DNA from: Thauera carbonicopians
GTDB lineage: Bacteria; Pseudomonadota; Gammaproteobacteria; Burkholderiales; Rhodocyclaceae
Length of the DNA: 64,000 bases
Direction of reading: 5' to 3'
Assembly: GCF_025699485.1 (NCBI RefSeq)
Contig: NZ_JANUXN010000001.1
Location: forward strand, 248,001 to 312,000
Shown: positions 23,383 to 63,643 of the stretch, piece after piece
Layout: every line of letters begins with the position of its first letter
Position numbering within the stretch: the stretch's first letter is position 1
Translations under genes and position numbers: made by a program
The notes under the pieces: generated by a model
Databases searched by the model: none
The model's input: only the letters and a program-made list of their open reading frames with translations
Told to the model about the DNA's origin: nothing

Positions 23383-23410
23383 ATCCTCGCACCGTTGTTC
23401 ATTTTGGCAA
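23383..23410 (-). promoter_or_regulatory. Dyad promoter P1, ankyrin operon
   Basis: The operator is at 23395-23410 (minus-strand TTGCC-AAAATG-AACAA). TTGCCA is the -35; 16 bp later is GAGGAT as -10, followed by GGT. The start codon at 23356 is a short leader away. Confidence 0.8.
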
Positions 23411-23439
23411 GTCTGGCCAGTGTGTACCTCACCGCAACT

Positions 23440-25587
23440 TCAATAGCCCGCGCCCCGCCGCTGTTGTCGGGCGTCCTGCAAGCCCACTCCTGACGGCTGG
23501 CGATCGGCCTTCATCTGCGCCGGGTGCTTGAACTGCGCCAGGACCATCGCCCGTTGTTGCTCGGCGATTTCCAGGGTCATCGCCGTGCGATCGGCGCCCA
23601 GCCGTAGGTTCGGGCTGGACACCTGCCGGGAATAGCCCTGGGCCAGGTCGACCGCCTTTTCGCCTTGCTTGTTGCGCAGCGATGGATCCGCCCCATGGCG
23701 TAGCAGTTCACCCACGGTGCGATCCAATCCCTTGGCGGCTGACAGGTGGAGCGCGGTATGGCCTTCGTGGTCCTGGGCGTCGACCTGCGAGGTGGGCGCC
23801 AAGAGCGCTACCACCTGGGCCTGATCGGCTTGCGCCTTCGCTGTGCGGGCAGGTGTAGCCGCTGCAATATGGAGCGCCGACTGGCCATCCTGGTTGACCA
23901 GCGTGGCGTCCGCCTTGCGCGAGAGCAGTTTCTGGATCAGTTGCAGATCGCGTTCGCCTGCGGCCAGGTGGAGCGCGCTATTGCCTTCCTCATCCACGGC
24001 ATTGATGTTCTTGTGAAGCGCCTGGTGGACTACGCCGCGGTCGCTGTCATGCCCCTGCTTCTGCGCCATGTGGAAGCGCAGTTGCCCGATATGGTCATCG
24101 GTCAACGCGCGGGGTGGAGCCAGCGTCTGGCCCTTGTCGTGCTTCAAGCCCAGGGCGGTGGTGCGCAGATCGCGTTCCAATCCGGTGCCGGCGATCCCAT
24201 CGGCCGAGGCAAGGCGATTGAGGTGGGGCGCGGCCTTTTTCAACTCGGGTAGGGCTTCGGGGTAGTGCTTGGCCAGCCCGTCCAGCGCCGCCTGCGCCAA
24301 GGGAATGATCGTCTCGCGGCCCGACTTCTCGCCCGCAGACTTGAACGTGCGTTGCCAATCGACGTTGGCTAGTGTGTTGAGGGCGTCCACTGCATTCCGA
24401 GCGTGTGCTTTCGGATCCAGGTCGCGCGGCGCATTCGGTGCCATGGCGACGTGGCCAGTGGTTTTCCCTGAACCGATTGCGTAGTGCGCGGTTGCAAGGA
24501 CGGCGTCGCCCACGCCTTGTGTCGAGCGAATGTAGGGGTCATCGAGTTGTGCGTAAAGCGCCAGGCGATTGATGGCTTCCTGTTGCTTCGGGGTCAGATC
24601 CATAGCCTTGGCCCGGGACTCGGAAGCAATCGCCGGGGCGTAGTAAGACACCGACGCCAGGTGGTGGCCTTCGCCCTCAAAGGGTGGGGCACCAATCCGC
24701 ATACCATTTAAGACACCGCCCACATGGCGCGTCATCTGGTCGCCTTGCTTACGGCTGTCTTCGCCCGTCGAGGCAAACGCCAGGTGCCAGGCGGTGGGGT
24801 TGTTGGCGTCCCGTAGAAAGCCGTCGATCCGACCGCCGCCTTCCGTGGCGCCCTTGCCATCCATCGTGAACGTCGAGACCCCAGACTCGTAAGCCAGGAC
24901 CAGCGGATCGTCCTGATCGTGGACGTGAACCTTGTCCACGCGCACGGGTACGAACAACTCCTGCCACCGGCCATCGAGCGCCGACTTGATCGCGTGCGGC
25001 TCCACCGTGTCGCCTGCCCGCAACTGCTGGATCACGTTTTTGAGCGTGCTAGCGTTGCGGGTTTCGCTGTCAGAGCCAGGCCCCAAGTCGCGCTCGGCCC
25101 ACCCAGACTTGATATACAGATCCATGCGGGCGATCGCTTCACCCTTCACGGTCTTGGTCAGCCCGTTTTCGGCGCCGTGGATCCAGTCGAGCAGCGGGGC
25201 CATCTTGTCGCCTTCCCAGCCCTTGTTCCCAGCAGGGGAGCGGGACAAGGCGGTACGTGTGGCAGGATCGGCCAGGTGCGCTTCATGCGCCCGTTGCAGG
25301 TTCGCCGTCGTGGCCTGGGCTTCGGGAACCGCGGCCACCGCCACGGCGCTTTCGCGCAGGAAGTCGTCTCTGTCGGCAAAGACTTCGGCCACCATGGCCG
25401 CGCCGGCATACGACATGCCGAACGACCGCAGTTGATCCTGAAACTGGCCTTGGGGCAGTTCATCCCGCAACTCATCCAAGGCACGGCACGCGGCCCAGGC
25501 GGTGCTGTCGGCGCGCTCACTGTCGGCGTCGACCCGCGCCAACTGCAGCGCGGCTTGCTGGACCAGGTTCTTGGGCGTGCGTTTCAT
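23440..25587 (-). CDS. Large ankyrin-repeat protein with a unique N-terminal domain (XopX/XVIPCD-like architecture not established)
   Basis: The 715-residue product has a unique N-terminal 500 residues, including an Ala- and Gln-rich helical start, a phosphoesterase-like or toxin-like GRIDGFLRDANNPTAW stretch of unknown meaning and an AMDLTPKQQEAINRLALY helix. Ankyrin repeats follow at about 535-660 (EEGNSALHLAAGERDLQLIQ). Its C-terminus does not carry the tail of the other ankyrin proteins but is basic (RQQRRGAGY). It is transcribed alone from the dyad promoter at 25614-25641. The layout suggests an effector or toxin, not a housekeeping protein. Confidence 0.75.
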   Translation of the reverse strand: MKRTPKNLVQQAALQLARVDADSERADSTAWAACRALDELRDELPQGQFQDQLRSFGMSYAGAAMVAEVFADRDDFLRESAVAVAAVPEAQATTANLQRAHEAHLADPATRTALSRSPAGNKGWEGDKMAPLLDWIHGAENGLTKTVKGEAIARMDLYIKSGWAERDLGPGSDSETRNASTLKNVIQQLRAGDTVEPHAIKSALDGRWQELFVPVRVDKVHVHDQDDPLVLAYESGVSTFTMDGKGATEGGGRIDGFLRDANNPTAWHLAFASTGEDSRKQGDQMTRHVGGVLNGMRIGAPPFEGEGHHLASVSYYAPAIASESRAKAMDLTPKQQEAINRLALYAQLDDPYIRSTQGVGDAVLATAHYAIGSGKTTGHVAMAPNAPRDLDPKAHARNAVDALNTLANVDWQRTFKSAGEKSGRETIIPLAQAALDGLAKHYPEALPELKKAAPHLNRLASADGIAGTGLERDLRTTALGLKHDKGQTLAPPRALTDDHIGQLRFHMAQKQGHDSDRGVVHQALHKNINAVDEEGNSALHLAAGERDLQLIQKLLSRKADATLVNQDGQSALHIAAATPARTAKAQADQAQVVALLAPTSQVDAQDHEGHTALHLSAAKGLDRTVGELLRHGADPSLRNKQGEKAVDLAQGYSRQVSSPNLRLGADRTAMTLEIAEQQRAMVLAQFKHPAQMKADRQPSGVGLQDARQQRRGAGY

Positions 25588-25613
25588 GGGAGCCAGGTTG
25601 GGAAGCCTGATCC

Positions 25614-25641
25614 ATCATGAATGCATTGTCGTTGCTGGCAA
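25614..25641 (-). promoter_or_regulatory. Dyad promoter P2, large ankyrin gene
   Basis: The operator is at 25626-25641 (minus-strand TTGCC-AGCAAC-GACAA). TTGCCA serves as -35 and CATGAT, 16 bp on, as -10, with GG after it. The ATG at 25587 follows about 25 bp downstream. Confidence 0.8.
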
Positions 25642-25724
25642 GCGGCAACTATGGTTGGCCGTGGCCAACCATCCTTCAGCGATCAAGTTCCGGCCCGTGG
25701 TCGCCCATCCTTTAGGATCCTAGA

Positions 25725-25945
25725 AAATAAAAGACCCGGGAGTTCCAAGGCTCCCGGGTCCACCACTAACTACCTTGAGACCCCTGACTTACCAGGTCAG
25801 GGACTATGAAGGTATTGCGCTTGTCAAAAAGCGCAAGGCTAAACGGCGCCGGCGAGGCCTTCGCGCGAACCTGAACGCCTGCCAACAGTATCGGTTCGCA
25901 GGCTTCGCCGAACACTAAATACCTATGGCTAGGCACTTCCGCCAT
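25725..25945. ncRNA. Hairpin-rich segment, candidate structured RNA
   Basis: Five hairpins follow in 220 bp without any gene: 25733-25760; CCCTGAC/GTCAGGG at 25782-25802; GCGCTT/AAGCGC near 25817-25834; GCCTGC/GCAGGC near 25877-25905; and CCTATGG/CCATAGG near 25921-25958. The first works as a terminator on the minus strand. The segment precedes the small gene at 25969 on the plus strand. It could be a small RNA on the minus strand or a structured leader on the plus strand. Confidence 0.4.
25733..25760 (-). terminator. Strong hairpin with minus-strand T-run
   Basis: A perfect 10-bp stem (GACCCGGGAG and complement) with an 8-base loop. On the minus strand it is followed by TTTTATTTTC, a good intrinsic terminator. 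No minus-strand gene lies between it and 25969, so it may end a small RNA. Confidence 0.7.
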
Positions 25946-25968
25946 GCCGCAACCATAGGAGCAAGACC

Positions 25969-26169: not shown

Positions 26170-26177
26170 TGGACGAG

Positions 26178-28787: not shown

Positions 28788-29432
28788 TTACGGGACGTTC
28801 CAGGTCTTGGCCTCGCCATTGACCTTGATGGAGACGTTCTTGCCGGAGGTGGTCGGGATCTTCACCGTCGAACCCGGCAGCACATAGCCCACCAGGCCCG
28901 TATTGACGGGCTTGCCGTCCACCGACATGACCGACAACTGGGCGGTGGCCGAACCCGAGTTGGACACGGCCAACGCCTGGCCTTCGCGGGTGAAGGACAG
29001 CGTGGGCGTGGCTCCTGCCGGGCGATAGAACAAGGGCAGGTTGTAGTTGAGCAGGAAGACCGCCCCGGATTGCTCGGGGGCAATGGCCTCGCTCGGCAAC
29101 TCTGAAATCACGACCCGGTAGGTTTGTTCGGTGGGCTTGTCCGGGCTGGTGCGGATGACGCGCACGATCTGGGTGGCGCCTGCGGGGATCTCGAACTGAC
29201 CTGGACCAAAGCGCACATCGTTGGTGGGGGTCTCCACCGTTTCGCCCGCCACTTGCGTCCAGGAGAACGCACGCATTTGGATCCGGATGGGTGCCGTGCC
29301 CGCGTTCTTGATCCGCAGGCTTTCCACCTTCTGTTGCGGTGTGAGTGTCATGCCCAGTGGGCTGATCTGGAGGTTGGCAGCGGTCGCGGGAAGGGCAACT
29401 GCAAGAGCGAGCGCAAGGAGCAAGCGTTTCAT
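28788..29432 (-). CDS. Periplasmic fimbrial chaperone
   Basis: The 214-residue PapD-like protein has a signal peptide (ending PATAA), a first domain with the strand LRIKNAGTAPIRIQMRAF and the pattern QIVRVIRTSPDKP typical of the FGS/FGL chaperone core. It donates a strand to fold subunits in the periplasm. The start at 29432 follows an AGGAC site and lies just downstream of the dyad promoter at 29462-29489. It is first in the chaperone-usher-exported protein operon. Confidence 0.88.
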   Translation of the reverse strand: MKRLLLALALAVALPATAANLQISPLGMTLTPQQKVESLRIKNAGTAPIRIQMRAFSWTQVAGETVETPTNDVRFGPGQFEIPAGATQIVRVIRTSPDKPTEQTYRVVISELPSEAIAPEQSGAVFLLNYNLPLFYRPAGATPTLSFTREGQALAVSNSGSATAQLSVMSVDGKPVNTGLVGYVLPGSTVKIPTTSGKNVSIKVNGEAKTWNVP

Positions 29433-29461
29433 GGTGTCCTGGTGGTAGTAGGGTATGGAAC

Positions 29462-29489
29462 AAGGTAGAGGCGTTGTCCTTTTTGGCAA
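29462..29489 (-). promoter_or_regulatory. Dyad promoter P3, chaperone-usher operon
   Basis: The operator is at 29474-29489 (minus-strand TTGCC-AAAAAG-GACAA). The -35 TTGCCA and -10 TACCTT are 16 bp apart. Confidence 0.85.
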
Positions 29490-30102: not shown

Positions 30103-30588
30103 TCAGAAATCGATCTGGACGCGCATGTTGGCGGCGTAGTGCCCTTCGGGCGCTGCGGCCTGCGGAGGAATGCGGCCGTACAACACCAGATTGAAGGCTG
30201 CACCAGTTCCAGACGCGGTACCGGAACTGGCATTCGTGCTATCCCAAGCCACGGTGCGGGAGGCGTCCGAGAACAACTTGAACTCGATATCGTTGGAACC
30301 CGCGTCCTTCATCAAGAACGAAGTGGCCGCAGCGTCAGCAGCGTCGAAGATCTTGATGGTGTAGGGCAGGGCCGAGGTGCACTGGACGGAGACGTTGGTC
30401 TGGGCGTCCTTGTTGGCGCGCAGCAGGCCGATATTGCCGAAGTTCAGGGTGGAGGCTGTGGCCAGGCAGTCGTCACCAATGGTCACGCTGGCATTGAGGT
30501 TGCCCGTAGAGGTGGCGGCAGACGCCGACCCCGCCAGAGCGGTTAGCGCGACGGCCGAGGCCAGCGCGAGGGAACGGATGGATTTCAT
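30103..30588 (-). CDS. Spore coat U-domain fimbrial subunit
   Basis: A 161-residue SCPU-type subunit with signal peptide (ending AGSASA), the cysteine pair in GDDCLATA and SVQCTSALPYTI, and a C-terminal LYGRIPPQAAAPEGHY strand block. It is homologous to the next gene and is probably the major or tip subunit. The dyad promoter at 30639-30666 sits about 50 bp upstream, and a GGAG site precedes the ATG at 30588. The divergent promoter P5 for the tail-protein operon lies immediately beyond. Confidence 0.85.
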   Translation of the reverse strand: MKSIRSLALASAVALTALAGSASAATSTGNLNASVTIGDDCLATASTLNFGNIGLLRANKDAQTNVSVQCTSALPYTIKIFDAADAAATSFLMKDAGSNDIEFKLFSDASRTVAWDSTNASSGTASGTGAAFNLVLYGRIPPQAAAPEGHYAANMRVQIDF

Positions 30589-30638
30589 GTGGACTCCAGG
30601 TAAGGGATTGGAAAGCCGCGAACTCCGCGGACAGGACC

Positions 30639-30666
30639 AGCCTAAACCCGTTGTCGTTTCTGGCAA
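30639..30666 (-). promoter_or_regulatory. Dyad promoter P4, fimbrial subunit operon
   Basis: The operator is at 30651-30666 (minus-strand TTGCC-AGAAAC-GACAA), -10 TAGGCT, spacing 16 bp, followed by GGT. Confidence 0.88.
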
Positions 30667-30729: not shown

Positions 30730-30757
30730 TTGCCAAAAAGAACAACGGCGCGAGAAT
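30730..30757 (+). promoter_or_regulatory. Dyad promoter P5, tail-protein operon
   Basis: The operator is at 30730-30745 (TTGCC-AAAAAG-AACAA), -10 GAGAAT at 30752-30757, followed by GGT. It is divergent from P4, only 63 bp away, so the two may be bound cooperatively. Confidence 0.85.
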
Positions 30758-30780
30758 GGTTCACCCGTCCAGGAAGCCCC

Positions 30781-33771: not shown

Positions 33772-33799
33772 TTGACGAAAACGACAAGCCATCAATAGT
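33772..33799 (+). promoter_or_regulatory. Dyad promoter P6
   Basis: The operator is at 33772-33787 (TTGAC-GAAAAC-GACAA), with -35 TTGACG and -10 AATAGT 16 bp on, then GGT. It drives the gene pair at 33828. Confidence 0.8.
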
Positions 33800-33827
33800 G
33801 GTCTAGTCGTTTTCCCAAGGTCTCGCC

Positions 33828-34103: not shown

Positions 34104-34837
34104 TGAACGACCTCATTCCGTCGATTTCTGTGCCCGGACTCCTGGCCGAACGGATCAGCCGCATTGACGCCGCCCAGGCCTTGCTGGCCGCACCCGAACA
34201 GCGGGCATTCGTCGAATACCTCCTGAAGGGCCGCATTTTCTGCAAGGACGATCACGAACTGATGGCCAACTACACCCAGCACGTCGATCGCGACTGCTGG
34301 AAAACCTTCATTCAGGCGTCGGGTCTGTGGGATCTGTTTGCGCGCGACACGCGCGATGAATGGATGAGGGCGTTGGGCATGGGTGACTACCAATACCGCG
34401 AGCTGCAGGAATGCCCGCCATTCACGGCCGAGTCCGCATTGGCCACCTTCCAGGCGTATGCGGAGCAGAAGGGCGAGTTGCGCAAGCAAGCCTTGCTCTC
34501 GCTCTACCGCCGACTGTCCTGGGACCACAAGACCAACCAGCCTGCGCTGTTCGGCAAGAAACTGATCTACACCCATTTCACTGATCGCCGTGGCTTCATG
34601 TACTCCGACGCCAGCCACTTGATGGACGACCTGCTGCGCGAGTTGTACCGACTGGACGGCAAGCCCGAGCCCGTCGGCGCCTGGGACCAGCGCGACAACG
34701 CCACCGGCTACTTCCGCGTCCAGAAGCACAAGAACGGCAACGGCCATGTCCACCTGGAACGGCTCGACCTGGTCGACCGCCTCAATGCCGAGTTGGCGTC
34801 CTATTGTCCGGGCGCATTGCCTGCACCGCGGCCATAG
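34103..34837 (+). CDS. DUF4942 domain protein
   Basis: The 244-residue protein has the DUF4942 pattern: WKTFIQASGLWDLFARDTRD, then RRLSWDHKTN and FGKKLIYTH. Such domains are common on plasmids and integrative elements, often fused to methyltransferases, but here it stands alone and the function is unknown. The ATG at 34103 overlaps the previous stop. Confidence 0.8.
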   Translation: MNDLIPSISVPGLLAERISRIDAAQALLAAPEQRAFVEYLLKGRIFCKDDHELMANYTQHVDRDCWKTFIQASGLWDLFARDTRDEWMRALGMGDYQYRELQECPPFTAESALATFQAYAEQKGELRKQALLSLYRRLSWDHKTNQPALFGKKLIYTHFTDRRGFMYSDASHLMDDLLRELYRLDGKPEPVGAWDQRDNATGYFRVQKHKNGNGHVHLERLDLVDRLNAELASYCPGALPAPRP

Positions 34838-38883: not shown

Positions 38884-38911
38884 TTGCCAGAAACGACAAC
38901 CAGTGAAATCA
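38884..38911 (+). promoter_or_regulatory. Dyad promoter P7, weak -10
   Basis: The operator is at 38884-38899 (TTGCC-AGAAAC-GACAA). The -10 position reads AAATCA, a poor match, and the following GG is absent. It lies 117 bp before the gene at 39017, next to the iteron-like array. Confidence 0.65.
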
Positions 38912-41375: not shown

Positions 41376-41391
41376 TTGCTGGAAACGACAA
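41376..41391 (+). promoter_or_regulatory. Dyad site P8 directly before the interrupted gene
   Basis: TTGCT-GGAAAC-GACAA ends immediately before the ATG at 41392. A -10 at the usual distance (ACGTCT) would fall inside the reading frame, so either the true start is further on or the site is only an operator. Confidence 0.55.
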
Positions 41392-41733: not shown

Positions 41734-43068
41734 TTATGAGGGCTCGGTTTCTTCCAGAAAATACTTGATCCAGCCCCTTACGGTTTGAAGGCGGCGTGGT
41801 TGCGTGCTGGCCCCAACCCCCCATCGTTTGAACATGCCTTCTACCAGATCCAGCTTGTGGAGGGTGTTGTAGAACAGAGGCTCACGAAAAATCACACGTG
41901 CCATCGCTTCAATCCGTTCTGCGTGTGTCATTCGGTTTACATCCACGCCAAACTCGGTCAATGAAATTGACCAGCCCTCACCATCGGAGCGGCGCCCATC
42001 TTCCTTGGAGACCAGACCAATCCAGCGTAGAGCGTTGGCGTAGTAATCAATCTGGCGCGGATCTAGGTCGAACTCCCCCAACAACTCATCTTTGGTCATG
42101 GTGGCGCCATCTTGTTTGGCCACCGTTGAAAACATGGCCAAGACTCTTGGGAAGCAGTCAGCCTGGGGGAATGGGGGTGGGTCTTTCAGGGGTGGTGCTG
42201 ATTTGACTGGATCGACTTGAACTGAGCGGATATCAAAAGACGCGCTGTCAACGAATGTGTAATGCTTTTCATTGGCATGGTCAGGCAACCACAACCCTGG
42301 CGCGGAGACGACCGGAATGAAGCGAATGAGCGGTTCTTCGTAGAAACAGATAAAGGACTTTACGGCCTTGGTGTTGGTCTTCTTGGTCTCCCAGGCTAAG
42401 TGCGGGTAGGCAACCTGCCGTACACTGAGATTGCTGCGGAAACCAATCTTTGCCTCTACCAGATTGATACTACTGGCACCCTCATAACCTCCATCTACTT
42501 CGATCTGTACGCCATCAATAGGGAGATCGACGCCATTCAGGCCGAATGGAAACTTCGGGCTGTGAACGCGACCACGTATCGTCAAATGAACATCCTCGCC
42601 GAACACGTCGGCCAAGGCACCTGACGCCAACATGGCGTCGAGCATGACGGCTTCGTGCCGCAAATGCAGTGGATCGATGGTGGTAACGGTTTTGGGTAAA
42701 TATAGGCGGGTTGCCTTGACGGCTGGGCGACTATTCAATGTCAAGAATGGGTCAAACCTGCCTATGCGATAGAGGCCATTTTTGATTGCCAGGATGGACA
42801 AGCCGTTTGAGCGCATGATGTTCGGGCGCTGTTCGTCGAAATCCATCTTGGTCATCAAGCGCGGCTCTTCCTTGCCGAACTTTTTGATATCGGTCGCAGA
42901 AATATCGTAGTAGTTGTTGCCCTGTCTATTGAGCGTTTGAAGTATGGGCAGTTGCTGGAAGATAGTATTCCAGGCCGTGTCCACCTTGGTTGTCTTGGAC
43001 GGTTTGGTGGTGCCGCCTGTTGGGGCGGCACCATTACCATTCTTGGGACTTGATTTCTTGGCTGCCAT
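41734..43068 (-). CDS. Putative Type II restriction endonuclease
   Basis: The 444-residue protein has a probable PD-(D/E)XK core (IEVDGGYEGASSINLVEAKI near residues 190-215). It directly follows, with an 11-bp gap, the methyltransferase gene on the same strand, the usual layout for a Type II pair. I do not recognise its specificity group; a GATC-type target would fit the methyltransferase. Lower GC than the surrounding element, in keeping with separate origin. Confidence 0.75.
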   Translation of the reverse strand: MAAKKSSPKNGNGAAPTGGTTKPSKTTKVDTAWNTIFQQLPILQTLNRQGNNYYDISATDIKKFGKEEPRLMTKMDFDEQRPNIMRSNGLSILAIKNGLYRIGRFDPFLTLNSRPAVKATRLYLPKTVTTIDPLHLRHEAVMLDAMLASGALADVFGEDVHLTIRGRVHSPKFPFGLNGVDLPIDGVQIEVDGGYEGASSINLVEAKIGFRSNLSVRQVAYPHLAWETKKTNTKAVKSFICFYEEPLIRFIPVVSAPGLWLPDHANEKHYTFVDSASFDIRSVQVDPVKSAPPLKDPPPFPQADCFPRVLAMFSTVAKQDGATMTKDELLGEFDLDPRQIDYYANALRWIGLVSKEDGRRSDGEGWSISLTEFGVDVNRMTHAERIEAMARVIFREPLFYNTLHKLDLVEGMFKRWGVGASTQPRRLQTVRGWIKYFLEETEPS

Positions 43069-43079
43069 GCGCTGATGGC

Positions 43080-44066
43080 TCAGTAGTTCGTAATCAGGAC
43101 TTCGTTAGCCTCTTTGCCCCGGCGATCGCCCTTACAGTTGATGGCACGGGTGGCGTAGACAGTCTGAATGTTGAACTGCTTGTAGAGGCTGCGTATCAAG
43201 TCCGTGTTCGAGTTGGATTGCATGACCTTGACCCCACGCCTAGTCAGCTCGGCAACAGCGCTAGCCAGTTCTTGCTGGTCTTTGAGACCAAATCCGCTCT
43301 TGGTGTAGGAGGCAAAGTTGGCAGTCGACGACATTGGCGCATACGGCGGGTCGAGGTAGATGAAATCCCCAGCCTTGGCATTCTCCAGGACGTGCTGGTA
43401 ACCAGAGTGGAGAATTTCAATATCGTTCTCAGACAGGTAACGATGGATGTTGAGCAAGTTCTCCCTGTCGACAATCTTCGGATTGTCGTAGCGGCCATAG
43501 GGCGCATTGAACTGCCCGGACTTGTTCTCCCGATACAGGCCGTTGAAGCACGTCTTGTTGAGGTAAATGAAACGGCTGGCCCGCTGAACGGGCGTCATGG
43601 TGGACAAACGCTTGGCGCGCACCGCGTAGAAGTGTTCTTCCGTGTTCTTATGGCGGCTAAGGCTGCGGATCAAGGCTTCCAGATCGTCCTTGATCACCTG
43701 ATAGCAGTTAACCAACTCTGGATTGATATCAGAGATTGTTGCGTTGGCTGGTTGCTGCGAAAAGAGCAACGCGCCCCCCCCGATAAATGGCTCAAAGTAG
43801 CGGCCAGTCATGCTGTTTGGCATGGCGCTAGTGAGGATATCGAGCAGTTGGCGCTTGCCACCCACCCACTTCACGAATGGCCGAATGGCAGGAAGAGTTG
43901 TACCGGCCGGCGCAACTGTCTGGGCGGGTCGAGCATTGCCAGGAGTTGTTTGGCGCACAGCCCGCGCCGAAACTTTGTGGATGTGCTGTGAGTTGAGAAA
44001 GTCGACGCCTGGAACAAACGGAGAAACGGGTTCCAGGGTGAAGGTGTTTGGATCTGTGTATGACAT
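43080..44066 (-). CDS. Dam-family DNA adenine methyltransferase (D12 class)
   Basis: The 328-residue enzyme shows the D12 class alpha motifs: PFVKWVGGKRQLL (SAM-binding region), YFEPFIGGGALLF (motif I), FNGLYRENKSGQFNAPYG and the catalytic YLDPPYAP (Asp239-Tyr242). The family methylates adenine, commonly in GATC. It should protect DNA from the neighbouring nuclease. The first 60 residues are non-conserved, so the true start may be downstream of 44066. Confidence 0.88.
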   Translation of the reverse strand: MSYTDPNTFTLEPVSPFVPGVDFLNSQHIHKVSARAVRQTTPGNARPAQTVAPAGTTLPAIRPFVKWVGGKRQLLDILTSAMPNSMTGRYFEPFIGGGALLFSQQPANATISDINPELVNCYQVIKDDLEALIRSLSRHKNTEEHFYAVRAKRLSTMTPVQRASRFIYLNKTCFNGLYRENKSGQFNAPYGRYDNPKIVDRENLLNIHRYLSENDIEILHSGYQHVLENAKAGDFIYLDPPYAPMSSTANFASYTKSGFGLKDQQELASAVAELTRRGVKVMQSNSNTDLIRSLYKQFNIQTVYATRAINCKGDRRGKEANEVLITNY

Positions 44067-50136: not shown

Positions 50137-50164
50137 TTGCCAGAGACGACAACGCCACTAGCCT
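50137..50164 (+). promoter_or_regulatory. Dyad promoter P9, YadA operon
   Basis: The operator is at 50137-50152 (TTGCC-AGAGAC-GACAA), -10 TAGCCT at 50159-50164 with GGT after it. It starts 12 bp beyond transposon B, so it survived the insertion. Confidence 0.88.
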
Positions 50165-50191
50165 GGTGTGACCACCCCACCTGGCAAACAC

Positions 50192-51235
50192 ATGAAGCGC
50201 TCATTTCTCATTCTTTCCCTGGGTCTTGCCGCATTCGGCGCGCAAGCCCAAACGTTCGACCCGCAGTTGGAGTCTTACTCCTGCCACGCCAATGCGGTTG
50301 CTTCTGGTTCCAGTTCAACCGCGTGCGGCCCGTTCTCGGAGGCCAGTGGGAATGGGGCGACCGCCTATGGCGATCAAGCCAGGGCAACAGGCCAGGCGTC
50401 GACCGCCACCGGCAACTATGCCGAAGCGACTGCACGACAAGCGACCGCGACGGGCGCGGAAAGTGAGGCCACTGGCGAACAGTCAACGGCCACTGGTCAT
50501 TCTTCATCTGCTTCCGGTTATGGCAGCACTGCGACTGGCGCCCAGGCCAATGCCTCGGGTCATAGCGCAACGGCAACAGGTGTCGCCACCGTCGCCTCTG
50601 GCGACGTATCCACCGCCTCGGGTGCCACTGCGCAGGCAACCGGCTACGCCTCGAATGCCTATGGCAATAACGCTCGCGCCACCGCGAACGGCGCGAATGC
50701 GTATGGATCGGCAAGCGTAGCGTCAGCCACCAATGCCGTTGCGCTGGGTCAAGGCTCCAATGCCAGTCACGCCAACTCGGTTGCCATCGGCGCAGGGACG
50801 CGTACCACCCAGGCCAACGAAGTGGCCATGGGCAATCGCCGTGTCACGCAAGTCGCCAACGGCTCCATTTCTCAGGGTTCGACCGACGCCGTCAATGGTG
50901 GCCAGGTCTGGGAGATCCTCCAGAACCTGCCCAACGGCTCCAACTTCGACGAGACCTTGTGGAACGATCGCTGGGACAACATCAACAACCGCTTCGGCGA
51001 AGTCGGCAAGCGTATCGACGGCTTGGGTGCGCAGATGGGCGCCATGTCCATGATGGCTGCAGCCCCCGGTGAAGGTGGCTTGTCCGTCGGTGTCGGCTAC
51101 TCGGGCAGTTCGGCGGCGGTGGCCGTGGGCTGGTCCAAGCGCTTCAACGATCGCGTGTCCATGGCCGTGGGTGCCTCCTTCGGTGGCGGCAACAAGGCGG
51201 TAGTGGGCGTCGGCTTGCGGATCGGGGGGCGCTAA
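50192..51235 (+). CDS. YadA-like trimeric autotransporter adhesin
   Basis: The 347-residue protein has a signal peptide (ending GAQAQ), a head made of about a dozen Ala-Thr-Gly repeats (xATATGxxAxAxG), a NAVALGQGSNA neck, and a C-terminal anchor (GLSVGVGYSGSSAAVAVGWS...GVGLRIGGR) that forms the trimeric barrel. Trimeric adhesins mediate surface attachment. It is short for the class, which usually has a longer stalk. Its stop overlaps the next start. Confidence 0.88.
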   Translation: MKRSFLILSLGLAAFGAQAQTFDPQLESYSCHANAVASGSSSTACGPFSEASGNGATAYGDQARATGQASTATGNYAEATARQATATGAESEATGEQSTATGHSSSASGYGSTATGAQANASGHSATATGVATVASGDVSTASGATAQATGYASNAYGNNARATANGANAYGSASVASATNAVALGQGSNASHANSVAIGAGTRTTQANEVAMGNRRVTQVANGSISQGSTDAVNGGQVWEILQNLPNGSNFDETLWNDRWDNINNRFGEVGKRIDGLGAQMGAMSMMAAAPGEGGLSVGVGYSGSSAAVAVGWSKRFNDRVSMAVGASFGGGNKAVVGVGLRIGGR

Positions 51236-53692: not shown

Positions 53693-53720
53693 TTGCCAGG
53701 AACGACAATGGCCCAAGAAT
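53693..53720 (+). promoter_or_regulatory. Dyad promoter P10
   Basis: The operator is at 53693-53708 (TTGCC-AGGAAC-GACAA), -10 AAGAAT at 53715-53720, then GGT. Start codon 53753. Confidence 0.88.
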
Positions 53721-53752
53721 GGTTAGGTATCCATCCACCTACCAGGTCCGCC

Positions 53753-56983: not shown

Positions 56984-57011
56984 TTGCCAAAAAAGACAAC
57001 GGTCAAACAAT
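56984..57011 (+). promoter_or_regulatory. Dyad promoter P11
   Basis: The operator is at 56984-56999 (TTGCC-AAAAAA-GACAA), -10 AACAAT at 57006-57011, then GGTTATGTGCTAGCAACT, a leader that also follows P13 and P14. Confidence 0.88.
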
Positions 57012-57054
57012 GGTTATGTGCTAGCAACTTCTAGCAGACCATTAGGAGACTTCC

Positions 57055-57215: not shown

Positions 57216-58520
57216 ATGCGCCAGGCCGTGCTGGACCAACTGTTGCCCGCAGCGATCATGCGCCTGCACCGGGAAGGCTATTTGCCGAAGGGTATAGCCA
57301 ACCTATTGAACTGCCCGGTGGCGGTGGCGGAAGACGTGATCCAGCGTCGGTTTGCCCAACAGGTCCAGGTCATGCGCCCGGAAAATCCGATGGTGGATAC
57401 CAAGGTCCTGGTCAAGGCGAGGAAGGACGAAGAGCGGACACGGGCGCGAGAGCAGAAGCGTCTGGAGCATGTTGCTCGGATCGAGGCCGAACGCGCCCTG
57501 CGTCAAGCCGTGGTCAAGGCACGCCAAGAGGAACGCGAACGCCTGCGGGAAGAGCAGAAGGAACGGTCCCGGCTTGCGAAGGAAGCGCAGCGCGCACTGG
57601 CGAATGAACGCCAGGCCCAAGAGGCGCGGGCGCGTCCAACGCAACTGGAGCAGATCTTGGACTATCGGGCGCAAGGCCTGTCCCAGAAGGAAACGGCGGA
57701 AATCTTGGGTGTCGACTACTGGTTCGTCCATCGCGTGCTGATGAAGCACGAACTGGCTTGTATCGGCGTCCGGGTGCAACCGAAGCGGAAACCGAGGCCG
57801 AAAAGAGAACAGAAACCGAAGCAGGTCGTTCGGCCCAAGCAAGTCCTGGCAACGACCAGTAATACGCCATGCCCGAAATGCCACTCGACCCACACCGCCA
57901 AGTTCGGCACGCGCCCGGTCAAGCACTCCGCCATGGTCATTCAGCGCTTCATCTGCCGCGGATGTGGCGAAAGGTTCAGTGAGAACGCAAACAAGTGGCA
58001 TTACGGCGACCATCGGCCCGATCTGACGCAGCCCATATTACGAGCCACGCTGGCAGGCAAAACTCATGAAGGCATGGTGGCCGAGTTCCAATGCGGTGGC
58101 GAAACGATCCCGCGCAAGATCCGTCGAATGGCGGAACACGCCCGCAAACACCATGTGGCCTTCACCTGTACCGACCAAGCCGCCTGGCTCACTGCCATCA
58201 CGACCGGCACGGAAATGAAGAGCGCCAAGTCCGACTTCCTCTACCTGGTGGTAGGAGCGGAAACCGGCGAGGTCTTGGAGTTCAACTTCTCCCGGCAACT
58301 CACTCATCGCCACCTCGATACCTTGGCCGACGTTGCCCGGATTTCCTATCCGGGATTGACCATCACCCAGACGCCACCCGAGGACGGGCCCGCTCAAGCG
58401 ACGGTCGCAGCCCTGACCGAGTTCAGCGACAAGGCGCTGAAGAAGGTCAGGAACATTCAGTCGGCAGGAGAACGCATGTACCTGTGGATGGGAGATCGGC
58501 GGGGCTTGTTCCAGGATTGA
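57216..58520 (+). CDS. Domesticated-looking IS1-like transposase relative fused to HTH and coiled coil
   Basis: In this 434-residue protein the C-terminal half has the zinc ribbon (CPKCHST...CRGCGERFS) and the strand TGEVLEFNFSRQ shared with the transposases at 44351 and 47667. The second catalytic Asp context (TTDGD) is lost and the RLSRKT end is absent. N-terminal to it are a long charged coiled coil (about 60-150) and a HTH (YRAQGLSQKETAEILGV). It lacks flanking inverted repeats. It is driven by P11, so it is probably a recruited DNA-binding protein. Confidence 0.65.
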   Translation: MRQAVLDQLLPAAIMRLHREGYLPKGIANLLNCPVAVAEDVIQRRFAQQVQVMRPENPMVDTKVLVKARKDEERTRAREQKRLEHVARIEAERALRQAVVKARQEERERLREEQKERSRLAKEAQRALANERQAQEARARPTQLEQILDYRAQGLSQKETAEILGVDYWFVHRVLMKHELACIGVRVQPKRKPRPKREQKPKQVVRPKQVLATTSNTPCPKCHSTHTAKFGTRPVKHSAMVIQRFICRGCGERFSENANKWHYGDHRPDLTQPILRATLAGKTHEGMVAEFQCGGETIPRKIRRMAEHARKHHVAFTCTDQAAWLTAITTGTEMKSAKSDFLYLVVGAETGEVLEFNFSRQLTHRHLDTLADVARISYPGLTITQTPPEDGPAQATVAALTEFSDKALKKVRNIQSAGERMYLWMGDRRGLFQD

Positions 58521-58540: not shown

Positions 58541-58568
58541 TTGCCAGAAAGGACAAGCATATTAGCCT
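58541..58568 (+). promoter_or_regulatory. Dyad promoter P12
   Basis: The operator is at 58541-58556 (TTGCC-AGAAAG-GACAA), -10 TAGCCT at 58563-58568, then GGT. It drives the genes at 58595 and 58791. Confidence 0.88.
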
Positions 58569-58594
58569 GGTACGAAACCATCCACAGGCTTGTC

Positions 58595-58801
58595 ATGTTC
58601 GCCCGCCAACCCGACCACGACCCCAAGCAGACCCGCGCCCTACAAGACGCTATCCGTGCGGGCAAGGTGCGTGCGCTCCACGCCCTGATCAAGAAGGGCG
58701 TCTACGTCGACGGTATCGCGTTCGACCTGGCCCGCTCCCACATGCCCAAGGAAGTTCCACGGCTCCGGGATCACATGCGCAAGGCCTACTATGGCGAATA
58801 A
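58595..58801 (+). CDS. Small protein with a single ankyrin-like helix pair
   Basis: A 68-residue basic protein (MFARQPDHDPKQTRALQDAI) with VRALHALIKKGVYVDGIA, resembling half an ankyrin repeat. It overlaps the four-HTH gene by 11 bp. Unknown function. Confidence 0.55.
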   Translation: MFARQPDHDPKQTRALQDAIRAGKVRALHALIKKGVYVDGIAFDLARSHMPKEVPRLRDHMRKAYYGE

Positions 58802-59390
58802 CGCAAAGATCGTGGAACTGCGACGCTCGGGCAAGTCCTTCCGCCAAATTGCGGATGAAGTGGGCTTGTCCAAGGAGCGTGTTCGTCAAATCCTGGACGC
58901 CGAGGGCGACCCCTGGACGGCCCGGGCGCGCAAGCGCTCCATTTCCTCGCGCCGCACCACTGTCATTCGCTTGTTCCACAAGGGACTGTCCCAGGAAGCC
59001 ATTGCCGAGGAACTGGGCCTGCGTTCCCGCTCCTACGTTGGCAGGGTGCTGCGGGAGGAAGGCTTGTCCTCGCGAACCGTACAGGTCGCCAAGCGTAAAG
59101 CGTGGTTGATGTCCTTGGACGCCGATATCCTGGCAATGCGGAAGCAGGGCCTGTCCTTCAAGACCATTGCCGAACGGCTGGATCTGAAGAACCCCATGCT
59201 GGTCTCCCAATCTTTGGCACGCCAGGGCGTAATCTGGCGCAGTCCCATCGATCGGGACGAGGTGGTGCGCTTGCGCCACGAAGGCCTGACGCCCAAGGAA
59301 ATCTCCGAGCAACTGGGGGCCAGTCGGCGCCAGGTGCTTTACGCCCTGCAGCAGGCCAATCTGGCGCAGCGACGCGGAAAGCGAACGTAA
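58791..59390 (+). CDS. Protein with four tandem helix-turn-helix units
   Basis: The 199-residue protein repeats a sigma-region-4-like HTH four times: SFRQIADEVGLSKERVRQIL, SQEAIAEELGLRSRSYVGRV, SFKTIAERLDLKNPMLVSQS and TPKEISEQLGASRRQVLYAL. The arrangement should allow binding of a long DNA site. No effector domain is present. It sits in the dyad-promoter regulon and is one candidate for its regulator. A terminator follows. Confidence 0.75.
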   Translation: MANNAKIVELRRSGKSFRQIADEVGLSKERVRQILDAEGDPWTARARKRSISSRRTTVIRLFHKGLSQEAIAEELGLRSRSYVGRVLREEGLSSRTVQVAKRKAWLMSLDADILAMRKQGLSFKTIAERLDLKNPMLVSQSLARQGVIWRSPIDRDEVVRLRHEGLTPKEISEQLGASRRQVLYALQQANLAQRRGKRT

Positions 59391-59433: not shown

Positions 59434-59459
59434 ATGCGTATAGATTCGCTAGTTAGGAC

Positions 59460-59487
59460 TTGCCAAGGACGACAATGGATAAAGAAT
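59460..59487 (+). promoter_or_regulatory. Dyad promoter P13, partition operon
   Basis: The operator is at 59460-59475 (TTGCC-AAGGAC-GACAA), -10 AAGAAT at 59482-59487, followed by the GGTTATGTGCTAGCAACT leader. Confidence 0.88.
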
Positions 59488-59532
59488 GGTTATGTGCTAG
59501 CAACTGCTATCACTCCTGAAACCAACACGACC

Positions 59533-59691
59533 ATGAAGACGAAATCCTCCAACGCCAACCTCTACCTCTACACCTTCCTTTCCCTCCTGATGGGTCTGGT
59601 CTCCCTCGTAGATCCGGCCTCCCTGGGTCAGCGCGCCATGGACCACCAGAAGGAACGCGCCGAGCAGGCCGTGAAGGCTTGGGGCCTGTAA
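59533..59691 (+). CDS. Small membrane protein, 52 residues
   Basis: One hydrophobic stretch (LYTFLSLLMGLVSLVDPA) with a charged end. It is the first gene after P13 and overlaps the ParA start by TAATG. Unknown function. Confidence 0.55.
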   Translation: MKTKSSNANLYLYTFLSLLMGLVSLVDPASLGQRAMDHQKERAEQAVKAWGL

Positions 59692-60269
59692 TGACACGCC
59701 ATATCGCGGTGGCCTCACCCAAAGGAGGCGTAGGCAAGACCCTGATCGCCCTCCAGTTGGCCGGCTACTACGCCGTCCAGGGCCAACGCGTAGCGCTGAT
59801 CGACCACGACCCGCAGGGGTCATCCCTGATCTTCGGCAAGGTCGCCCAAAATGCCGGCGTCGAACTGCCGTTCGTGCCCACCACGGCGATGGCTTCGGGG
59901 TTCGACCTCTACATTCACGACTACCCACCGGGGCTGGCGAACCACTATGCGCCCTCCCAACTGGTCATCGTTCCGACCTTGCTGGACGCGGCTAGTTTCC
60001 TGGTGCACACGCGGGGCGTGAAGTATTTCCAGGAGTTGGGGCTGCGCGTGGTGCCTGTTGCACAGCGCGTTCGCACCGACCGGAAAGAGCAGCGCGATCT
60101 GTTGAAGCACTTTTCCGAGGGCGTGGTCCTGCGCGACCGTGCCTTGTATGCCAACTGTTATGGCAAAGGGCTCACCGTCGCGTCGGCGCGTGGACTGCCT
60201 CACCTGGGGAAAGCCCAGAGCGAAATCGCACACCTCGCGCAGGTGGTGGAGCGGGAGGTACAGAAATGA
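59691..60269 (+). CDS. ParA-family partition ATPase, short form
   Basis: The 192-residue protein has the deviant Walker A SPKGGVGKT near the start, LIDHDPQGSS as the second motif and IHDYPPG in place of the usual DxPP region. At under 200 residues it lacks the regulatory N-terminal domain of plasmid ParA and is a type Ib-like form. It should segregate or stabilise the element when it is excised. The two following genes overlap and are its probable partners. Confidence 0.85.
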   Translation: MTRHIAVASPKGGVGKTLIALQLAGYYAVQGQRVALIDHDPQGSSLIFGKVAQNAGVELPFVPTTAMASGFDLYIHDYPPGLANHYAPSQLVIVPTLLDAASFLVHTRGVKYFQELGLRVVPVAQRVRTDRKEQRDLLKHFSEGVVLRDRALYANCYGKGLTVASARGLPHLGKAQSEIAHLAQVVEREVQK

Positions 60270-60850: not shown

Positions 60851-60878
60851 TTGTCAAAAAGAACAACGGATCAATAAT
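60851..60878 (+). promoter_or_regulatory. Dyad promoter P14
   Basis: The operator is at 60851-60866 (TTGTC-AAAAAG-AACAA), -35 TTGTCA, -10 AATAAT at 60873-60878, then GGTTATGTGCTAGCAACT. It is the best -10 of the series. Confidence 0.9.
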
Positions 60879-60925
60879 GGTTATGTGCTAGCAACTGCTA
60901 TCACCACACTACCAGGAGCCCAGAC

Positions 60926-61060: not shown

Positions 61061-61075
61061 CAGGAGACCGACGCC

Positions 61076-61177: not shown

Positions 61178-61191
61178 CCCGAGACCACCCC

Positions 61192-61383
61192 ATGACTACC
61201 TCGACGACCACCAACCTCATCTTCGCCACCGTCGCCTCCTGGGTTCTCCTGCCGGCATTCGCCGCAGGCATGGCCTGGCTGGGCTACGACCTCACCAAAC
61301 TGATCTGGGTGCTGGCGGCTCTGGCAACTGCCTCTGTGCTGTTCGAGACGCCCCGCGAATGGATCCTCGACCGCTTCCAGTAA
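61192..61383 (+). CDS. Small membrane protein, 63 residues
   Basis: Two hydrophobic segments (about residues 8-30 and 34-52) in MTTSTTTNLIFATVASWVLL. Probably an inner-membrane peptide. It precedes the gene at 61388 by 4 bp. Confidence 0.6.
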   Translation: MTTSTTTNLIFATVASWVLLPAFAAGMAWLGYDLTKLIWVLAALATASVLFETPREWILDRFQ

Positions 61384-61387
61384 ACCC

Positions 61388-61717
61388 ATGCGCATTCTCG
61401 AACACCACGTCTGTCCGATTTCCGGCCACACCTACGCCGTCATCGTGAACCCCATCGCCGGAGGCCTGGCTGGTCAACCTGCATATTGCTACCGCCTGAT
61501 CTGTGCGCTGATCCCGGACTGGATCTTCCAGATCAACACCACCCGATCGGTCTCCCGCACGCCAGGGATCCTGATCTACAAAGAGTTCGACGTGTTGGAA
61601 CCCCTGGTAGGGACACCCGGCACCGAGGAAGCCATTGCCGCTCTTCTCCGCGAAGCCCGAAACCTGGGCAGCGTCCTGCGCGGCGCCCACCACCTTGTCC
61701 CAAGGAAACTGACATGA
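61388..61717 (+). CDS. Hypothetical protein, 109 residues
   Basis: Begins MRILEHHVCPISGHTYAVIV; contains a conserved-looking PDWIFQINTTRS segment. Coupled by ATGA to the next gene. Unknown function. Confidence 0.6.
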   Translation: MRILEHHVCPISGHTYAVIVNPIAGGLAGQPAYCYRLICALIPDWIFQINTTRSVSRTPGILIYKEFDVLEPLVGTPGTEEAIAALLREARNLGSVLRGAHHLVPRKLT

Positions 61718-62205
61718 ACCACGCCCGCTATACCCGTCTTGTAGACGCCATCCAGACCCAACGGCTGCAGACCGTCCAGGACGCCTTGGCTGAACTGCGC
61801 GCCGTCGCCAAGACCTTCCAACCCCACTATCAGGTAGGCGAGAACCCGTCGGAGTTCGACCTGGACTGGACGTTGACCAACGCCCGGTCGGAGGAAGACC
61901 TAACCCCCATGGCCGTGCTGTGCCACCTGTACGCCATGATGAAAACGAAGGGCGACGTGGCTTCCTGTGATCGCCTGAACGCGATTGCCGAATGGCTGAT
62001 CGCGCATGGCGCTGACCCGTTCCTGGACCAGGCCAGGCCCTTGTTCGCCGACGGTCGCCGCGGCACGGGCGCCTCGATCGTCCAGACCTTCGGTCGCGCC
62101 AACTTGCCCAGTGCCGTTCAAGCCGCGATCAATGCCGTGAACGACAGCACCGGGGAAGACGCCAGGGTTCTGCGCTACTGGTTGAGGCTGGGCATTGCCG
62201 CCTGA
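61714..62205 (+). CDS. Hypothetical protein, 163 residues, possible ankyrin-like end
   Basis: A helical protein whose CDRLNAIAEWLIAHGADPFL segment looks like an ankyrin repeat. Last gene of the operon; its 3' end overlaps the convergent HNH gene by 31 bp. Confidence 0.6.
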   Translation: MNHARYTRLVDAIQTQRLQTVQDALAELRAVAKTFQPHYQVGENPSEFDLDWTLTNARSEEDLTPMAVLCHLYAMMKTKGDVASCDRLNAIAEWLIAHGADPFLDQARPLFADGRRGTGASIVQTFGRANLPSAVQAAINAVNDSTGEDARVLRYWLRLGIAA

Positions 62206-63206
62206 CCGTGTACCTTCGAGTACGCCGCCCAGTAGCGGTTGACGTAGTAGCGCGTCTCTTCCAACTCCCCCGGCAACCCCATCGCCTGCTGGTCGCGTAG
62301 CCGACCCATCGCCTGGTCGAAATCCACTTCGGCCTGTTTCAGGAACAACACATCGGCCTTGGCTTGGGCCTTCGCCCGACGCTCGGCCACCAGTTTCCGT
62401 TGCCGCATTGCACGCGGTCCCACTTCACGCCGGGACGCATTCAACGGGACTTGCACACCTGCGACCTTGCGTAGCCGCAACTCCCCGACGCTGGCCGAGG
62501 TAAGCCACCAGTAGTCCTGGAAGTCGCGCAACCGAGACCTGCGACCGACCCCGACCACCCACGCGTTCGCTTCAATCAGTTGCCACACCACCCGACGGAA
62601 GGCGTCGTCCTCCAACCGGTAGACGGTCAGCCGTGGCGACTTGTTCAGGGGCGTGCCCGCCACCTGGGCCAGCAGTCGGGCTAGCCCTTTCGACTGGGTA
62701 TCGCCATAGCGGCTGGAGACGCCGACGTAGCAGGAACCATCGTCAGCTTGGGCGGCATAGACGCGCGAACGGGGCAGGGCATGACGTTGAGCCAGCGCCG
62801 AACGGTAAGCGGCCAGCGTAGTGGAAGGGGGCAGGGGTGCGAGGTGATTTTGGGCTAGCAGGAGAACGGCGTGGCGTTGAGCCGCGAGGTCAGCGGGCAG
62901 GTTGGGGACGGTTAGCAGATCGGTGGAGGCGCGCACTTGTTGGCAGCGACGGCAGCACACGAACAGGTTATCGACAGTGAGCGGGCCACCCAAGGACGTG
63001 TGAACCAGCGAGGCGAGCGACGGGAAGTTGGGGCCGTTGGAGGTGGTGGGATCGTAGGCGATGGAACAGAGCGGGCAGCGTGAGCCAGCATGGGCAAGAC
63101 GTTTGCGACGGGCGTATTTGGGTGGGCAGAGACGACGGCGAACATCGAGCGGAGCAATGGCCGATTGGAATTGAGCGAGCGACATTGAGGCGGCAACGGG
63201 AACCAT
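62175..63206 (-). CDS. HNH endonuclease-like protein
   Basis: The 343-residue product has two CXXC pairs (RCPLCSIAY and CCRRCQQ) around a hydrophobic NLFVCC strand, as in HNH-type zinc-stabilised domains; His is placed at LVHTSLGG. The C-terminal half is basic and Gln-rich without a clear domain. It is transcribed alone from P15. The start at 63206 has a CAGG site; the longer frame reaches into the promoter. A homing or mobilisation nuclease is possible. Confidence 0.65.
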   Translation of the reverse strand: MVPVAASMSLAQFQSAIAPLDVRRRLCPPKYARRKRLAHAGSRCPLCSIAYDPTTSNGPNFPSLASLVHTSLGGPLTVDNLFVCCRRCQQVRASTDLLTVPNLPADLAAQRHAVLLLAQNHLAPLPPSTTLAAYRSALAQRHALPRSRVYAAQADDGSCYVGVSSRYGDTQSKGLARLLAQVAGTPLNKSPRLTVYRLEDDAFRRVVWQLIEANAWVVGVGRRSRLRDFQDYWWLTSASVGELRLRKVAGVQVPLNASRREVGPRAMRQRKLVAERRAKAQAKADVLFLKQAEVDFDQAMGRLRDQQAMGLPGELEETRYYVNRYWAAYSKVHGQAAMPSLNQ

Positions 63207-63234
63207 TGGAACCTGAACGAGTAGCGATGGAAGC

Positions 63235-63262
63235 AGTGTAGGGGGCTTGTTGTGTGTGGCAA
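63235..63262 (-). promoter_or_regulatory. Dyad promoter P15, HNH gene
   Basis: The operator is at 63247-63262 (minus-strand TTGCC-ACACAC-AACAA), -10 TACACT, spacing 16 bp. Confidence 0.8.
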
Positions 63263-63291
63263 GCGAACGGTTGAACCGATGGAAAAACGCG

Positions 63292-63334
63292 CCGGCCAAC
63301 AACCACTGGTGGAGCGTTAGTGGTTGTTGGCCGG
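63292..63334. repeat. 16-bp perfect inverted repeat
   Basis: CCGGCCAACAACCACT and its complement, 11 bp apart, stand in a gene-free region before the relaxosome-like gene. There is no T-run, so it is not a simple terminator; inverted repeats like this flank nick sites in many transfer origins. Confidence 0.75.
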
Positions 63335-63615
63335 AAGAGCAAAGGCGGCGAGCAGAGCGAAAAAGGCTTGAGGTGGCTGGCGTTGTGGTGGCTCGACGAT
63401 GGAGCGACGAGACCAGCGACAACAGCAAGCCGAGAGCATGGACAACACGCACCATGGTGTTTTTTCCACTGCACTAGAACGCGAACCTAAAAACCAGGTG
63501 CAAGCCCTTGTCCCGCAAGGCTTATCGCCACATTTAGAAGCCCAATAGAAGCGACCCCCGAATAACGGCCTTCCAGCCTTGTTGCGAAGGGGTTTGCGAA
63601 CCTTTAGAAGCAGAC
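63335..63615. other. Gene-free stretch, candidate origin of transfer
   Basis: About 280 bp between two divergent genes, without a credible reading frame. It has a lower-GC part with three TTTAGAAG/ATAGAAG motifs (near 63532-63550 and 63603) and hairpin-forming blocks. With the inverted repeat before it and a ribbon-helix-helix gene after it, it could be oriT. Confidence 0.35.
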
Positions 63616-63643
63616 TTGCCAAGGATGACAAGCGCCGTAAGGT
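63616..63643 (+). promoter_or_regulatory. Dyad promoter P16
   Basis: The operator is at 63616-63631 (TTGCC-AAGGAT-GACAA), -10 TAAGGT at 63638-63643, then GG. It drives the gene at 63676. Confidence 0.85.

Follow-up and report, generated by a model that had tools for sequence, protein, structure and literature searches.

Which protein governs the many similar promoters of a mobile element in Thauera carbonicopians, and how does it recognize them? The question is raised by a stretch of 64,000 nucleotides (C11:248001-312000, here called the window, to which all coordinates without a prefix refer) in a genome of 4,524,829 bases in 48 contigs. An earlier note on this DNA had listed about fifteen promoters that share the motif TTGYC-N6-RACAA and had proposed that one regulator coordinates surface, stability, and transfer genes. 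We find that about 19 promoters of a mobile element of ~75 kb share one control site and appear to be jointly controlled. A single element regulator over these functions is still the best reading, and of the three candidates named before, the likeliest is g068, encoded at 58791-59390.

The window contains 15 copies of TTGYC-N6-RACAA, compared with 0.53 on average and at most 4 in any of 100 shuffles. Across the 4.52-Mb genome there are 31 copies, 19 of which (the one at 42786 among them) lie in one block of ~55 kb (C11:271395-326459); the 4.47 Mb outside it holds 12, and the reversed pattern, used as a control, gave 14 matches in all. An equal frequency in the host genome at large, which the earlier note had set against its own proposal, is not what this distribution shows. 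Four more exact sites lie 1.9 to 14.5 kb past the end of the window (C11:313867, 321526, 322563, and 326444). Fourteen of the 15 coordinates listed before carry the exact motif. The other one, 33772, is inexact (TTGACG-AAAACGACAA), and yet its 30-bp score is like that of a real site, and position 34749 of the sister element in Pseudoxanthomonas daejeonensis has the same form. The list had overlooked the exact copy at 42786, which was excluded here: it is coding (inside gene g043), has no -10, and is probably a chance match. The accepted set (n = 19) consists of the exact copies minus 42786, plus the variant at 33772.

All 19 accepted sites are intergenic, though 88% of the region is coding according to our own gene calls, and all 19 face a gene start, as had been claimed. 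The ATG lies 33 to 78 bp from the first T of the motif at 18 of the 19 sites and 133 bp from it at 38884. The 16-bp spacing between the -35 and -10 elements had been read correctly. In the -10 columns 16 bp on, the 18 exact sites have A (18/18) and T (17/18), followed by G (17/18) and G (16/18). The -10 form WANNNT given in the earlier note thus holds at its A and T positions, as does the GG after it, but its first base is not fixed (G or C at 23395, 25626, and 30730), and NANNNT fits better. A good -10 is missing at 41376, as had been stated (this site is outside the accepted 19), and also at 38884.

Promoter frame and operators in six related elements

The site was followed through six elements: that of the window, that of P. 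daejeonensis, and four designated C, D, F, and G, the sequences of D and F being truncated at contig ends. The P. daejeonensis host belongs to a different order of the same class as the window host, and its element is largely syntenic with the window element. Elements C, D, F, and G share a common core, and identity over six backbone proteins ranges from 60 to 92% among the elements.

The promoter scaffold TTGCC[AG]-N16-NANNNTGG gave 14, 15, 5, 6, 6, and 13 matches in the window, P. daejeonensis, C, D, F, and G elements, respectively. The total of 59 compares with ~2.6 expected (0.70, 0.35, 0.20, 0.40, 0.10, and 0.80 from 20 simulated sequences per element). Spacers of 15, 17, and 18 bp gave 1, 1, and 0 matches in the elements, and no spacer from 10 to 24 other than 16 totaled more than 8. 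In six flank stretches, the 16-bp spacer had no match and the 17-bp spacer had one. The window's own genome contains 35 matches to TTGCCR-N16-NANNNTGG, of which 14 fall within the block and 21 in the 4.47 Mb outside it, compared with 7 for the reversed pattern. When all six genomes were scanned whole, the scaffold had 132 matches, 60 of them placed in the elements and 72 elsewhere.

The sequence that follows TTGCC within this frame differs between elements. The window and P. daejeonensis elements have a CGACAA-like sequence at positions 11 to 16; the latter element contains 26 exact copies of TTGYC-N6-RACAA, of which 24 read TTGCC-N5-CGACAA and 15 have the full scaffold. The operator of C and D reads GGGGTTGCCGAAATCGGC, the F operator reads TTGCC-R-N3-AC[AT]GC (at only five sites), and the G operator reads GGTTGCCAAA[AT]CC. 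Counted across the elements in the order given above, the window operator has 19, 26, 1, 1, 0, and 0 matches and the G operator has 0, 0, 0, 0, 0, and 10, with none in the flanks for either; off-diagonal, flank, and shuffle counts served as the control. Judged from these sequences, related elements appear to keep the promoter frame and to have changed the operator together with part of the presumed reader protein.

This distribution argues against a host regulator as the reader of the sites, since the P. daejeonensis, D, and F elements reside in three species of one host genus (g231) and yet have three operators. Conversely, one operator is common to the window and P. daejeonensis elements, whose hosts belong to different orders, and TTGYC-N6-RACAA is absent from all six flank stretches. 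We found nothing in favor of a host regulator and give it next to no probability. It might also be proposed that duplication spread a promoter cassette over the element and that the copies are not regulated jointly. Sequence downstream of three promoters (56984, 59460, and 60851) is common to them, and the sister element has one 257-bp tandem copy, in which the same promoter stands twice in identical surroundings (G712:C32:236387 and 236644). This twin suggests that promoters spread by duplication. At most window sites, however, little is shared beyond the 30-bp frame, and the window and P. daejeonensis elements, whose backbone proteins are 78% identical, have retained the same operator. We regard copying without shared regulation as very improbable.

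g068 as the candidate regulator

In all six elements, a gene that opens with a related helix-turn-helix (HTH) module lies between g067 and g069-parA. In the window, this gene is g068, whose first module (HTH1; 58791-58907, forward strand) resembles region 4 of sigma-70 and is the portion that all six elements retain. The remainder, HTH2 to HTH4 (58908-59390, forward strand), has a counterpart in the three additional HTH modules of the P. daejeonensis regulator, whereas the regulators of C, D, F, and G have an unrelated domain after HTH1. When window-element genes were compared with the relatives by tblastn, 24 were matched in all five, and g068 had the lowest coverage. In each of C, D, F, and G, 17% of its length (residues about 6 to 39) aligned, at 51 to 57% identity, whereas 18 of the 23 other common genes aligned over more than 70% of their length in all five relatives. 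The promoter of the regulator operon g067-g068 (58541-58570, forward strand) has equivalents in the five relatives, and in all six elements it contains the local operator, as autoregulation would predict. The first gene of this operon, g067 (58595-58801, forward strand), encodes a 68-amino-acid protein directly before the regulator and is also kept in all six. The operator at its operon and the domain replacement support 58791 among the candidates of the earlier note, and the other two were rejected: 57216 is unmatched in the P. daejeonensis element despite the same operator, and 39017 is unmatched in C, D, and F, three of the five relatives.

Some other element protein might read the operator, either the ribbon-helix-helix-like g079 or one of the small, conserved products of the g069-g077 group. 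All five relatives have a match to the g079 product, and in the window and P. daejeonensis elements the operator is present at the g079 promoter. However, this product aligns over 80 to 97% of its length in the relatives, with no swap, and its promoter in C and D is without the element's own operator (TTGCCAGTCCGC and TTGCCAGCGTGC), unlike that of the regulator operon. We consider such a reader unlikely.

The stretch VGLSKERVRQ of HTH1 is identical in the window, P. daejeonensis, and C regulators. Against the Pfam family Sigma70_r4 (PF04545; cutoff, 24.1 bits), the window HTH1 alone scored 26.6 bits and the D regulator scored 24.7 bits. When the six HTH1 pieces were used in a profile search of PDB, the first 11 of 37 rows were sigma factors, the best being RpoS (E = 8e-4). 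Sigma region 2 was not among the matches shown for the regulators of the window (best 25 of 51), P. daejeonensis (best 25 of 44), C, and D. Sigma region 4.2 makes its main contacts with T, T, G, and C of TTGAC. These are the bases fixed in the sites described here, which fits the idea that HTH1 reads the -35 box. A structure prediction of g068 from its single sequence gave four tri-helical modules, with a mean predicted local distance difference test score of 80 and a predicted template modeling score of 0.39. A Foldseek search with this model found no match at E ≤ 0.001, and in PHROGs, g068 gave generic HTH matches and the C, F, and G regulators gave none.

With moderate confidence, we favor the reading that the sites are operators of g068 acting as an element-encoded master regulator, mainly an autoregulated repressor, with modular recognition of the -35 box and a private half-site. 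Each site would be a sigma-70 promoter (-35 TTGCCA, exactly 16 bp, NANNNT, and GG) in which the -35 hexamer and the first ten spacer bases form the operator. The sites with their spacing, intergenic location, and clustering over the element, the syntenic relatives, the operators of each element, and the replacement inside g068 are observed; binding of g068 to the sites, the assignment of its domains to their halves, repression, and a burst on entry are what we infer. HTH1 would read TTGNC of the -35 box and the C-terminal part would read the adjacent half-site, CGACAA in the window; g068 would compete with sigma region 4 at the -35 box, repress, and limit its own synthesis. Upon entry into a regulator-free cell, surface, partition, replication, and transfer genes would burst on and then settle, and the excerpt of PMC3937220 reports such a brief release of genes on entry into a new cell for the R388 repressors. 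The relatives would have kept HTH1, TTGCC, and the 16-bp frame and changed the C-terminal part together with the second half-site, so that each element type would control only its own promoters. A more far-reaching version, which we find rather doubtful, is that these regulators stand in for sigma region 4, a sigma-4-like HTH and an exchangeable DNA-reading module defining a private promoter class for each element. The host polymerase would then read such promoters only with the element's own specificity protein.

Alternatively, g068 could be an activator at the -35 region, replacing or stabilizing sigma region 4 at off-consensus promoters, and the genes would be off until g068 is made. The spacer is 16 bp in 59 of the 61 scaffold matches with spacers of 15 to 18 bp in the six elements, the fourth base of the -35 is C and not A, and the first base of the -10 is free; in the excerpt of PMC2988021, T4 MotA provides a precedent for an activator site that replaces a -35 contact. 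However, the R388 regulators found were all repressors according to the excerpt of PMC3937220, and no AsiA-like partner was noticed, though none was searched for. Moreover, the promoters of g031 (TTGACG), g079, and g090 of element C keep the 16 bp without the element's own operator, so the strict spacing may reflect descent or plain sigma-70 geometry. The strictness of the spacing is why we still leave activation by g068, as a tentative alternative, about a quarter of the probability.

Several observations weigh against an autoregulated g068 repressor with an exchangeable half-site. An activator would account for the strict 16-bp spacing no less well. Some of the 59 scaffold matches are probably due to chance, such as the coding match inside g067 of G. 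The six elements amount effectively to four operator types, and the C/D, F, and G patterns were read from the promoters of those same elements, which makes their diagonal counts partly circular. Off-diagonal counts are not all zero, as the full rows show for the C/D operator (2, 2, 8, 5, 1, and 0, in the same order of elements; flanks, 2) and for the F operator (1, 0, 2, 0, 5, and 2; flanks, 2). Partial coverage extends beyond g068: the ankyrin gene g019 aligned over 24 to 62% in C, D, F, and G and g029 aligned over 33% in C, both of which we read as repeat cross-matches, and g077, g084, and g085 had coverage of 52 to 65% in one relative each. The likeness to sigma is modest among the regulators scored (window, C, and D), that of C falling below the Sigma70_r4 cutoff at 23.3 bits. 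Finally, HTH1 of F (SGEQVRKLL) has lost some of the sigma-like contact residues, and F keeps TTGCC despite this changed recognition helix, which weakens the point drawn from the HTH1 contacts. The retention of TTGCC may simply reflect the requirements of sigma and not reading by HTH1.

Individual sites and the element that carries them

On the reverse strand of the window, composite promoter/operators precede the ankyrin genes g019 (site, 23381-23410; gene, 22412-23356) and g020 (25612-25641; gene, 23440-25587). Others on this strand precede g024 (29460-29489; gene, 28788-29432), chaperone-like by eye and by its position before the usher-like g023; g026 (30637-30666; gene, 30103-30588), pilin-like by eye; and g078 (63233-63262; gene, 62175-63206), which has no family match and is HNH-like by a Cys/His pattern seen by eye. 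On the forward strand, they head g027 with g028-g030 downstream (30730-30759), g029 and g030 being ankyrin genes by Pfam and g028 by similarity only; the YadA-like gene g052 (50137-50166; gene, 50192-51235); g057 (53693-53722), without a family match above cutoff; g065-g066 (56984-57013); g069-parA (59460-59489; parA, 59691-60269); g073 (60851-60880), which encodes 44 amino acids and is 64 to 90% identical in the five relatives; and g079 (63616-63645), perhaps a relaxosome protein, whose DUF6290 and NikA-like matches are below cutoff. The promoter at 56984 also heads 57216-58520, whose product has a weak HTH match and an IS1-like zinc ribbon and is matched in none of the five relatives. The variant site at 33772-33801 (forward strand; TTGACG...CGACAA...AATAGTGG) stands before g031, a member of the superinfection-immunity family.

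Both sites without a good -10 are on the forward strand. The one at 38884-38899 lies upstream of g040 (CopG-like, below the Pfam cutoff) and the primase-like g041 and is syntenic in the sister element. The operator-like site at 41376-41391 abuts the ATG of g042 and is kept at 42443 of the P. daejeonensis element. Together they flank the replication-like g041, and copies without a -10 are also present in P. daejeonensis (C32:216124 and 218443); perhaps they could be roadblocks or serve replication control. Beyond the window, at the promoters of the relaxase gene (L001:10563-10598) and g092 (L001:14424-14459), the ATG is only 33 to 35 bp away from the first T of the -35. This places the start codon at or next to the expected transcription start, so these mRNAs are possibly leaderless. 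The relaxase promoter is similar in F and likewise in G, there with TTGTCA.

The block of sites probably sits in an integrative element of ~75 kb. A 16-bp direct repeat, GCCATTCTTTTGCCAC, occurs at 5481-5496 and at L001:16922-16937 (80922 in window-plus-downstream coordinates), with one copy at the 5' end of mutS and the other after the last conserved gene. The copies bracket the element and are candidate attachment sites. The product of 5570-7588 has a tyrosine-recombinase-like C-terminal pattern by eye, and its best Pfam match, an arm-DNA-binding domain, is below cutoff. Beside this probable integrase lies a type ISP restriction-modification gene (8334-13067) that is ~83% identical in the sister element. 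A TrwC-type relaxase and a TrwB-type coupling protein gave Pfam matches above cutoff, and a P4-family-like primase scored slightly under its family cutoff (106.7 versus 108.7 bits). Other genes of the element encode ParA, ankyrin proteins, a YadA-type adhesin, and ArdC-type proteins, and there are UmuDC-like and SRAP genes. No mating-pair type IV secretion genes were recognized among the proteins scanned, which are only part of the element's proteins, so the element may depend on a helper for transfer. At 41734-44066, a DUF6996/6997/7226 protein is encoded beside a D12-class adenine methyltransferase; the pair has no match in the five relatives and is probably restriction cargo.

A relaxase search of genome contigs returned one close relative (81% identical, in P. 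daejeonensis) and one remote match. With the HNH-like g078 as the query, 4 of 247 genomes in the family of P. daejeonensis were matched (P. daejeonensis, C, D, and E), and later g078-type searches, from which F and G come, returned 3 of 17 genomes within its genus, 1 of 7 from a second genus, and 8 of 395 across the family, with repeats counted. Outside the six-element counts are element E (G1121), a shortened relative with two scaffold matches in which no regulator was found by motif; the distant element H (G1341), with one scaffold match; and a weak match in G972. Element E has inserted genes, by eye MerR-like and mercury-type-transport-like (G1121:C8:7921-28000). Only G000 was matched by g068 among 150 relatives (E ≤ 1e-8) and by g084 among 297 family genomes (E ≤ 1e-20). 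Among 399 genomes of the order and 369 of the class, only G000 and G712 had more than one match to the 30-bp pattern, and 17 and 8 others, respectively, had exactly one. In viral contigs, the 30-bp CGACAA pattern was present in 54 contigs with one match each, and a stricter pattern matched one contig, with a single operator match at the locus; we read all of these as chance because none had two. Searches for relatives in viral contigs found none. Among plasmids, g068 and g078 had no match and g084 had one weak match. The plasmid matches listed for the relaxase were all below 60% identity, as were those of the coupling protein and the primase-like protein, and ParA had 360 matches below 60% and 3 at 60 to 80%. 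No description of the element or the regulon was found in open-licence PMC papers.

Relation to known systems

The six elements make up a naturally occurring set of regulator-operator pairs in which the promoter frame stays constant. If the proposed reading is true, they show how mobile elements control genes in many hosts while insulated from their relatives, and they offer mutually orthogonal, -35-anchored regulators whose DNA code is accessible by domain exchange.

Autoregulated control of maintenance and transfer promoters is also described, in the excerpts of the respective papers, for ArdK, KorA, and StbA of R388 (PMC3937220) and for KorA and KorB of RK2 (PMC11790492). In contrast to those systems, one regulator would span all functions here, and the operator is anchored on the -35 box; no homologues of KorA, KorB, or ArdK turned up in the proteins scanned. 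As in the excerpted account of T4 MotA/AsiA (PMC2988021), an element-coded protein would act at a site in the -35 region of a promoter with a sigma-70 -10, but the protein architecture is different. The archaeal Cbp1, which binds the repeats of clustered regularly interspaced short palindromic repeat arrays, likewise places tandem HTH modules on a repeated site (PMC10883916, in excerpt). Its biology is different, and the match to NCBIfam NF040595 reached 69.3 bits against a cutoff of 140.

By analogy, the recognition logic most closely resembles that of the immunity repressors of cluster A mycobacteriophages. The excerpts of two papers describe the cluster A repressor as a monomer with two DNA-binding domains and asymmetric sites (PMC9283540) and C-terminal variation that tracks the site motif (PMC6550527). 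Within what those excerpts cover, both systems have element-wide asymmetric sites oriented with transcription (more than 20 in phage L5 and 19 accepted here) and a small protein in which an N-terminal HTH is joined to a second DNA-binding domain, the N-terminal part being better conserved and the C-terminal part covarying with the site. A profile of the C, D, F, and G regulators matched nine PDB sequences at E ≤ 5, five of them RpoS or SigB chains and none a phage repressor, whose presence in the library was unchecked; g068 alone matched two at E ≤ 1, neither of them a phage repressor. Unlike the cluster A sites, those described here stand at promoters with a fixed -10 and would not mainly be elongation stops; only the sites at 38884 and 41376, both kept in the sister element, lack a -10. 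In addition, HTH1 is sigma-4-like, the C-terminal part is swapped for an unrelated domain and not merely diverged, and the element carries conjugation genes. An element-wide regulon under one regulator is therefore of a known kind, and it is in promoter placement and whole-domain exchange that the present system differs from cluster A.

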